DNA from: Actinomycetota bacterium
GTDB lineage: Bacteria; Actinomycetota; Acidimicrobiia; Spongiisociales; UBA11373
Assembly (NCBI GenBank): GCA_016870535.1
Contig: VGBK01000005.1
Coordinates: 1 to 57,327 of the forward strand
Reading direction: 5' to 3'
DNA length: 57,327 bases
Made by a program: the position numbers and the translations under genes. Every line of letters begins with the position of its first letter. The stretch's first letter is position 1. Shown piece by piece: positions 15,571 to 26,584 of this stretch. The notes beneath the pieces were generated by a model. That model did not search any database, was not told the origin of the DNA, and saw only the letters and a program-made list of their open reading frames with translations.

Positions 15571-16011
15571 TCAGTTGCCCAGCCCCTGGTCGAATCCCCG
15601 CACTCGCGCCGTAAGGGCCAGAAGGAGGCGCAGGGCCAGCCGTCCGTCGGACTCGACCAGGCGGCGGAAGGAGGCCCCCTCGATCGCCAGAGTGATCACC
15701 GGTTCGTCGGCGGTGACCGTGGCCGACCGCAGCCCGCGGTCGATCACCGCCATCTCGCCGAAGAAGTCGCCCGGGCCGAGCCGGACGACGACGTGCCCCC
15801 TCACGGACACGGTCGCACGACCGCTCGCCACCACGTGCAGAGCATGAGCCACCGCTCCCTCGCTGACGATGGCGTGCCCGGCAGAATGGGGCACCTCGCG
15901 CGCCAGAGCGGCGACGGTCCGCAGGGTCCCCTGGGGCAGACCGGCGAAGAGCGGGACACCGCTCAGCAGCGACGCTCTCGCCTTGCCGGTGATGGCGGCG
16001 CCTCGTTGCAT
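15571..16011 (-). CDS. Cyclic nucleotide-binding domain protein without a DNA-binding domain
   Basis: LFAGLPQGTLRTVAALAREVPHSAGHAIVSEGAVAHALHVVASGRATV...LGPGDFFGEMAVIDRGLRSATVTA; ends after the cNBD. Confidence 0.85.
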   Translation of the reverse strand: MQRGAAITGKARASLLSGVPLFAGLPQGTLRTVAALAREVPHSAGHAIVSEGAVAHALHVVASGRATVSVRGHVVVRLGPGDFFGEMAVIDRGLRSATVTADEPVITLAIEGASFRRLVESDGRLALRLLLALTARVRGFDQGLGN

Positions 16012-16278
16012 CGCGCCATCGTATCTCGCTCGCCCTCCACCGTGGGAGGCGATCCCCTTCGGCACGCCGTCGCGCCCTTCTGGAGCGGACGCGGCGGCAC
16101 CTACGGGCCACGCTCGAAGCCGTGGCCGCCGCCGTAGCGGAGAAACGAGGCAGGAGGACGACCACTGAGGAGATGCCGCGGCGCTCGCGGACTTCGACCC
16201 CGCCCGGCACGAAGAGGAGGCCCGGCGCAGCGCATGCCGGCAGCCATCGCGGCCCACGAGGGATGACCGATGGGGCCC

Positions 16279-25428: not shown

Positions 25429-25890
25429 TCAGCCGGCGCCGAGCTCCTCCCGCACCAGGCGGCCGACCAGGGCGCCGTCGACCGTTCCCCCGGCCGCCTT
25501 CATCACGTGCCCGATGACTCGGCCGGCCATCTTGGGGTCGCCGGCTCCCAACTCGGCGATGGCGGAACGCACCAGCTCCCGGGTGGCCGCCTCATCGAGG
25601 GTAGACGGCAGCCATCTAGCGAGATACTCGATCTCGAAGGCCAGCTTCTCCGCCTGAGCCCGCCCCCGCTCCCCCGCGGCGGCGAACTCCAGGCGGGCCT
25701 TCTCCATCTTCTTGCAGTACGCCCCGATGACCCGCCGGTACAGCTCGTCGCCCGCCTCCCCGCTGAAGCCCGGCTCGGTGCGCGCTCGCGAGACCTCGGT
25801 CTCCACCTGCCGGATCACATCGAGGCGCTTCCGGTCACGAGCCCGCAGGGCGTCCCTCAGTTCCGCAGCGAGTTCTTCGTGAATTCCCAT
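25429..25890 (-). CDS. GatB/YqeY domain protein
   Basis: LAAELRDALRARDRKRLDVIRQVETEVSRARTE ... DPKMAGRVIGHVMKAAGGTVDGALVGRLVREEL. Confidence 0.9.
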   Translation of the reverse strand: MGIHEELAAELRDALRARDRKRLDVIRQVETEVSRARTEPGFSGEAGDELYRRVIGAYCKKMEKARLEFAAAGERGRAQAEKLAFEIEYLARWLPSTLDEAATRELVRSAIAELGAGDPKMAGRVIGHVMKAAGGTVDGALVGRLVREELGAG

Positions 25891-25956
25891 CGTCCATCAG
25901 GGTAGTGGCCGTCCCGCCCATCGCGATCTTCCTGGGAAGCGCTTTCAGGAGATCGG

Positions 25957-25985
25957 TTGACGAGGCCCCGCCGCCGCCCTATCTT
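25957..25985 (+). promoter_or_regulatory. Candidate sigma70-type promoter for whiB
   Basis: TTGACG (25957-25962), 17-nt spacer, TATCTT (25980-25985). Confidence 0.55.
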
Positions 25986-25999
25986 GTGTAAGGCCCATT

Positions 26000-26015
26000 T
26001 GTGAACTGCTTCACA
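26000..26015. promoter_or_regulatory. Palindromic operator TGTGAA-CTGC-TTCACA (CRP/FNR- or Rex-type)
   Basis: Perfect 16-bp inverted repeat matching TGTGA-N6-TCACA, 35 nt upstream of the whiB start. Confidence 0.6.
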
Positions 26016-26049
26016 TTCCAGGGCACCGAACAGAGAAAAGAACCGGATC

Positions 26050-26322
26050 TTGATAACCCTGACCGTAATCGATTGGCGTGACGCCGCCGCCTGCCGAGAC
26101 TCCGAACCCAACCTCTTCTTCCCCATAGGCTCCACCGGACCGGCCGTCGACCAGATAGAGGCCGCCAAGGCCATCTGCACCGAGTGCACCGTCCGGGAAG
26201 ACTGCCTGACGTACGCCCTGGAGACCAACCAGGAAGCCGGGGTGTGGGGAGGCTACGCCGAGGACGAGCGGCGCCGGCTGCGCAAGCGCTGGCTGGCCGA
26301 GCGGCGCCGCCGCGCCGGCTGA
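26050..26322 (+). CDS. WhiB-family Fe-S transcriptional regulator (WhiB1-like)
   Basis: DWRDAAACRDSEPNLFFPIG...AKAICTECTVREDCLTYALETNQEAGVWGGYAEDERRRLRKR; four Cys and GVWGG; TTG start. Confidence 0.93.
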   Translation: MITLTVIDWRDAAACRDSEPNLFFPIGSTGPAVDQIEAAKAICTECTVREDCLTYALETNQEAGVWGGYAEDERRRLRKRWLAERRRRAG

Positions 26323-26359
26323 GACCCGCCGCGTCCTCTCCCCGGTCGTCCCGGGGGCT

Positions 26360-26584
26360 TCACTCTTTTCCGAAACCGATCCGGGGGGACTTGTCCGCTT
26401 CGACGTCGAGATAGGCGATCTTGTCGACCACCAGGCCGTGGCGGCGGCCCTCCTCGTCCACCAGCCAGAGGATCTTCTCCCCGTCCTCCACGGCCTGCCG
26501 GAAAGAGCGGATCACCTCCTCGGCGTCGGCCACCTCGAGATCCAGTTCCCGCGCCGTCATGGTCACGCCGATCCTCACCCGCAC
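26360..26584 (-). CDS. DUF3107 family protein
   Basis: MRVRIGVTMTARELDLEVADAEEVIRSFRQAVEDGEKILWLVDEEGRRHGLVVDKIAYLDV. Confidence 0.85.
   Translation of the reverse strand: MRVRIGVTMTARELDLEVADAEEVIRSFRQAVEDGEKILWLVDEEGRRHGLVVDKIAYLDVEADKSPRIGFGKE

Follow-up and report, generated by a model that had tools for sequence, protein, structure and literature searches.

The window, by which we mean the whole 57,327-nucleotide stretch of DNA that was analysed, carries a short gene of the whiB1/wblE class behind a promoter and a palindrome (Table 1). An earlier sequence-only reading had proposed these three elements, with whiB starting at 26050, and every letter was found where that reading had placed it. 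The pair TTGACG-N17-TATCTT was the sole sigma-70-type match within 25880-26400, a region for which shuffled sequence gives an expectation of 0.0. The core palindrome, TGTGAACTGCTTCACA, occupies 26000-26015, and its arms reach one base further on each side to give TTGTGAA-CTGC-TTCACAT (25999-26016), a single mismatch in 14 positions from the full Rex consensus TTGTGAA-N4-TTCACAA. It is separated by 13 nt from the -10 box, and, with transcription taken to start near 25992, its position of approximately +8 to +25 fits promoter blocking. The promoter and the palindrome were found to move together, with TTGAC(C/G)-N17-TAnnnT preceding the operator by 10-14 nt both in the window and in nine of its close relatives (L104, L105, L108, L117, L118, L121, L122, L124, and L137).

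Table 1. Features of the whiB1-like locus (positions in the window).
Feature	Position	Strand	Basis and remarks
YqeY-family gene	25429..25890	-	Divergent neighbour; Pfam YqeY, 1.4e-22; outside the regulation claimed here
Second palindrome, GGAAGCGCTTTC	25935..25946	+	Perfect-type; 10 nt ahead of the -35 box
-35 box, TTGACG	25957..25962	+	Read in the sequence; sole promoter-like match of the region
-10 box, TATCTT	25980..25985	+	17-nt spacer to the -35 box; transcription start inferred near 25992
Predicted Rex operator, TTGTGAACTGCTTCACAT	25999..26016	+	About +8 to +25; sequence match and conservation
whiB1/wblE-class gene	26050..26322	+	90 aa, TTG start; Pfam and PDB matches

The second palindrome of Table 1, GRAAGCGCTTYC, resembles operators of the LacI family. 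It lies upstream of the -35 box at the promoters of the whiB1-like and group-2 sigma genes of this genome and of whiB1 in a congener (25935-25946 in the window, L010 1422-1433, and L104 2042-2053), and no further independent place was found among the 332 loci fetched. In other relatives, palindromes resembling GGAACCGGTTCC take the same upstream position.

The product of the whiB1-like gene contains the four cluster cysteines at positions 15, 43, 46, and 52, a pair of phenylalanines at 23-24, and GVWGG at 64-68, and it matched the Pfam family Whib at 1.2e-24. The label of WhiB1-like was upheld by the search of the PDB, where the WhiB1 entries 5oay (3.7e-28) and 6ono (1.9e-27) were followed by the next other WhiB protein at 1.7e-15, making WhiB1 the nearest relative of solved structure, with an E-value margin of more than 11 orders of magnitude. 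The residues W3, F17, F18, and W60 of WhiB1, which are needed for sigma binding (PMC10245118), correspond to W9, F23, F24, and W66 here. The protein is accordingly placed in class I of the Wbl proteins (WhiB1/WblE), and it is predicted to hold a [4Fe-4S] cluster and bind region 4 of a sigma factor.

The sequence-only reading had suggested a scan of the genome for the palindrome, and this was carried out on the 2,565,459-base assembly, a fragmented MAG of 322 contigs and 96% completeness in which the absence of a gene is not absolute. For the expected counts, a first-order Markov model was fitted to the window. The 12 fixed bases of TGTGAA-N4-TTCACA occurred in three exact copies against 0.007 expected, while copies with one mismatch numbered zero in the 2.57 Mb against 0.38 expected, and those with two mismatches numbered 10 against 9.8 expected, which is the chance number. 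The occurrence of the 12-base form is not due to chance. All three exact cores sit just upstream of a regulator gene, namely the whiB1-like gene, a group-2 sigma-70 factor of 322 aa with regions 1.2, 2, 3, and 4 (TTGTGAAGCGCTTCACAA, contig C15), and an Lrp/AsnC regulator (TTGTGAACCCCTTCACAA, contig C19). None of the sites with up to 2 mismatches in 12 was seen to adjoin a respiratory gene of this genome, and no site was seen at cyd, nuo, atp, or rex, the start of rex keeping a half-site only. The 10-base CRP-style pattern TGTGA-N6-TCACA, with 5 matches in the genome against 0.47 expected, is weak evidence by itself and was dropped as a statistic, as two of the five matches lacked the inner bases. 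The ten sites with two mismatches were inspected and set aside, being a chance number that includes two copies of one sequence. These identical copies of TGTGAAGCATGCCACA (L029 1501, contig C63:9918 of this genome; L033 1501, contig C167:3896) lie on two contigs, one of them adjoining a transposase-like gene, and were assigned to a repeated element rather than to a Rex site.

Conservation was assessed in the 300 nt upstream of 80 orthologous whiB loci, mostly from MAGs titled Acidimicrobiia, and the counts that follow come from related genomes and hence are not independent. Phylogenetic footprinting was among the checks proposed in the sequence-only reading, which would have fallen had orthologs lacked the palindrome, and the palindrome was found to be kept: a site with no more than 2 mismatches in 14 to TTGTGAA-N4-TTCACAA was present upstream of 70 of the 80 orthologs (0.1 in shuffles), and one with no more than 3 mismatches was present in 74 (about 0.55 in shuffles). 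Among the loci failing the site test was L116, which has just 56 nt of upstream sequence. The distance from the sites with up to 2 mismatches to the matched whiB start varied between 30 and 228 nt. The letters have thus been held while their flanks shifted, and the conservation is not merely that of a shared flank. The operator-anchored logo read TTGTGAA-A-N3-(T/A)TCACA(A/T)-(T/A)C and thus retained TTGTGAA and TCACA, the Rex arms including the left inner A. Approximately 20 of the 70 sites had A for the inner right-hand T (TTGTGAA-N4-ATCACAA), a form that CRP could also read, and many of the acidimicrobiial sites ran on as TTCACATTCACAA, adding a half-site. That control might be conserved in the lineage, with a geometry suggesting repression, had also been proposed, and both points agree with a site kept at the orthologs and placed at about +8 to +25.

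The genome was found to contain one Rex gene (contig C177), whose product scored 304 bits against the NCBIfam Rex model (cut-off, 226), contained PF06971 and PF02629 (the winged helix and the NAD-binding fold), and aligned over its length to solved Rex structures. When compared with the DNA-contact residues of Thermotoga maritima Rex as listed in PMC8836258, 10 of the 12 were kept (R12, S33, E34, R48, K49, S52, G58, R60, G61, and Y64) and two were changed (K43 and Q46). R48 and K49, which read the bases, are among those kept. The NAD contacts N92, A96, and Y100 were also kept. Rex was found in 58 of the 59 relatives searched, and the one relative without it (G037, 89% complete) had no site of either form. 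The sequence-only reading, which would have been undone by a genome with no CRP, FNR, or Rex regulator, had left the choice between redox control by Rex and cAMP control by CRP; the presence of Rex in this genome and in the relatives, together with the ortholog-conserved site, upholds the former, and the latter was not borne out, as no Crp-type helix-turn-helix (HTH) reached the cut-off. On the evidence of the sequence, its conservation, the promoter geometry, and a Rex whose contacts to DNA and NAD are intact, the palindrome is very probably a Rex operator (ROP) at the whiB1-like promoter, with Rex predicted to stand above other regulators in this lineage. Binding, release by NADH, and the direction of control are proposed by analogy with wblE of Streptomyces avermitilis.

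The first candidate considered was a CRP site controlling whiB1 in the manner of Mycobacterium tuberculosis, where the CRP Rv3676 is a dual regulator of whiB1 (PMC3430963). The core TGTGA-N6-TCACA does match the CRP consensus, and some relatives possess a strong Crp-type HTH. However, no such HTH over the family cut-off was found in this genome or in the congener, the best match in the genome having an E-value of 6.9e-4, and the candidate was rejected on that ground. Of the three proteins with a cyclic-nucleotide-binding domain encoded in the genome, the two short ones were scanned and contained no HTH, and the third is on C66. (In the window itself, 15571-16257 on the minus strand encodes a cyclic-nucleotide-binding-domain protein without a DNA-binding domain.) Moreover, the whiB1 site is kept in many relatives that lack a strong Crp HTH, its arms are conserved out to TTGTGAA, and its position downstream of the -10 box is not an activating one. 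CRP control is thus considered very improbable. Hardly better is the prospect that a second regulator, for example another protein of the CRP/FNR type, shares the operator with Rex and that the conservation reflects dual use. The ATCACAA arm variants at about 20 of 70 sites and the Crp-type HTH proteins in many members of the order would accord with such sharing, but what the genomes have in common is Rex (58 of 59), a site lies at the start of rex itself in 7 of 28 loci, and a second factor of the CRP/FNR type was not found in this genome; we regard dual use as very improbable.

The palindrome could also be thought to act in the mRNA, as a 5'-leader hairpin, rather than as a DNA operator, as it lies downstream of the presumed transcription start and, once transcribed, could form a 6-bp stem with a 4-nt loop. 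Against this, the letters of the arms are fixed and do not covary, approximately 30 of the 70 sites have a mismatched outer pair (T facing T), no terminator was found, and the same palindrome occurs upstream of unrelated genes at varied distances. The hairpin and terminator readings were rejected on the conserved letters, the broken outer pair, and the lack of a terminator, and an RNA element is scarcely credible.

The reading as a Rex operator was supported by the predicted targets in the order-level relatives. Sites with no more than 1 mismatch lay upstream of whiB1, of ATP-synthase subunit-I-like genes (a name based on their resemblance to one another and on a single Pfam match under the threshold, with the site 200-320 nt away), of HemN (the oxygen-independent coproporphyrinogen oxidase), and of genes for a heterodisulfide-reductase-like Fe-S protein, a pyridine-nucleotide-disulphide oxidoreductase, molybdopterin oxidoreductases, ArsR regulators, and a conserved membrane protein without Pfam assignment. 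A site with up to 2 mismatches overlapped the beginning of rex itself in the 7 loci mentioned above. A Rex operator, unlike a CRP site, is expected at rex and at genes for respiration and redox enzymes, and this set favors Rex. As a separate observation, a conserved membrane protein of approximately 240-250 aa (SLQAFSEAQNVTLSYNEDGQLIDRGTTEG), which has no Pfam match, has a Rex-type site in about ten relatives (loci L088, L083, L095, L103, L060, L102, and L062), and in several relatives an ArsR-type regulator with a Rex-type site of its own lies near it.

Outside the order, a whiB1 site with no more than 2 mismatches was found in 11 of 27 Rex-bearing and in 0 of 7 Rex-less genomes (P = 0.07). 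Phylum-wide, the agreement between site and Rex presence was weak, in the expected direction but not significant (Fisher P = 0.07-0.09), and the association is suggestive rather than conclusive. In three Rex-less genomes, which we take to be mycobacteria and whose WhiB1 is nearly identical to that of M. tuberculosis, the site was absent or degenerate, with 3-6 mismatches. As a positive control, the Rex footprint on wblE of S. avermitilis, reported as TCGTGAAAGCGTTCACAT plus the half-site TTCACAA (PMC5355995), was recovered letter for letter in a genome of the phylum (G081).

The sigma factor with the second exact core is taken to belong to group 2 and not to be the principal sigma, as relatives have longer RpoD-type proteins in addition to it, and its score fell below the cut-off of every curated RpoD/SigB model. 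This sigma is about 81-96% identical across the order, and its promoter, GGGGGTTCACAA-N12-TGTGnCATAGT, is conserved in most families (L283-L312). In this genome, 16 nt separate the CATAGT box from the start of the Rex-type site, a geometry very close to that of whiB1 (13 nt). Of the 13 members of the window's family that could be tested, 10 had such a site, as did G048 and G053, whereas the search of most other families of the order gave none. A different sigma paralogue (57-60% identical) had a site in families f8 and f2 (L094, L313-L316, L093, L318, and L320), which indicates that more than one paralogue would have gained, or retained, the group-2 sigma control by Rex. These sigmas keep the RHP motif, with the histidine in sigma region 4 that WhiB proteins contact; by reading the motif, we take this histidine to be the counterpart of H516. 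A WhiB1-type protein might bind this group-2 sigma.

It is established that Rex occupies its DNA sites while NADH is low relative to NAD+ and dissociates as NADH rises. With NADH scarce, a Rex dimer would sit directly after the -10 box of the whiB1-like promoter and block RNA polymerase. When NADH accumulates, as when an electron acceptor is short, Rex would be released and the [4Fe-4S] WhiB1-like regulator would be produced. Rex would likewise be placed over the group-2 sigma gene, where the operator position is similar, and at the Lrp-type regulator, where the copy lies upstream. By analogy with S. avermitilis cydA1, at which Rex protects -3 to +25, and with wblE (PMC5355995), Rex bound at about +8 to +25 would be expected to prevent initiation or promoter escape. 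It is conceivable, although on balance doubtful, that Rex in this lineage has ceased to work mainly at respiratory genes and stands atop a cascade, with one type of NADH-released operator co-controlling a group-2 sigma factor and a protein of the WhiB1 class. If so, the two partners of a WhiB-sigma complex would become available together at high NADH. The recurrence of the operator at group-2 sigma genes, in two paralogues and different families, suggests that sigma supply is under the control of NADH, which was unreported in the literature searched.

The WhiB1 class regulator is essential in mycobacteria. The present data would extend the Rex-WhiB1 link from Streptomyces to Acidimicrobiia and suggest a very old tie between NADH sensing and an iron-sulphur regulator. 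They also offer a testable account of the CRP control of mycobacterial whiB1, as the Rex-less genomes with near-identical WhiB1 lack a good Rex site. Compared with M. tuberculosis whiB1, which is controlled by CRP (Rv3676), the target is orthologous and the core palindrome nearly identical, but no CRP-type regulator was found in this genome. The operator consensus is also that of the Staphylococcus aureus Rex regulon, TTGTGAAW4TTCACAA (PMC2883068), although the Rex targets there are genes of fermentation and anaerobic respiration rather than wbl or sigma genes.

The closest known system is S. avermitilis, where Rex repression of the WhiB1 ortholog wblE has already been shown (PMC5355995). Rex control of the WhiB1 class is thus known in Streptomyces, and what is seen here is almost certainly its counterpart in a distant, uncultured actinobacterial class. 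The two share the repressor family, an orthologous class I Wbl target, the operator consensus, an operator downstream of the promoter, and, in many of the relatives, the arrangement of TTCACAT followed by a TTCACAA half-site. They differ in the position of the operator, which is at about +8 to +25 here and at +108 to +135 in S. avermitilis, and in the other Rex-type sites of this genome, which are at sigma factor and Lrp genes. Less expected is that all detectable Rex-type sites of the lineage lie at regulators, including a sigma factor.
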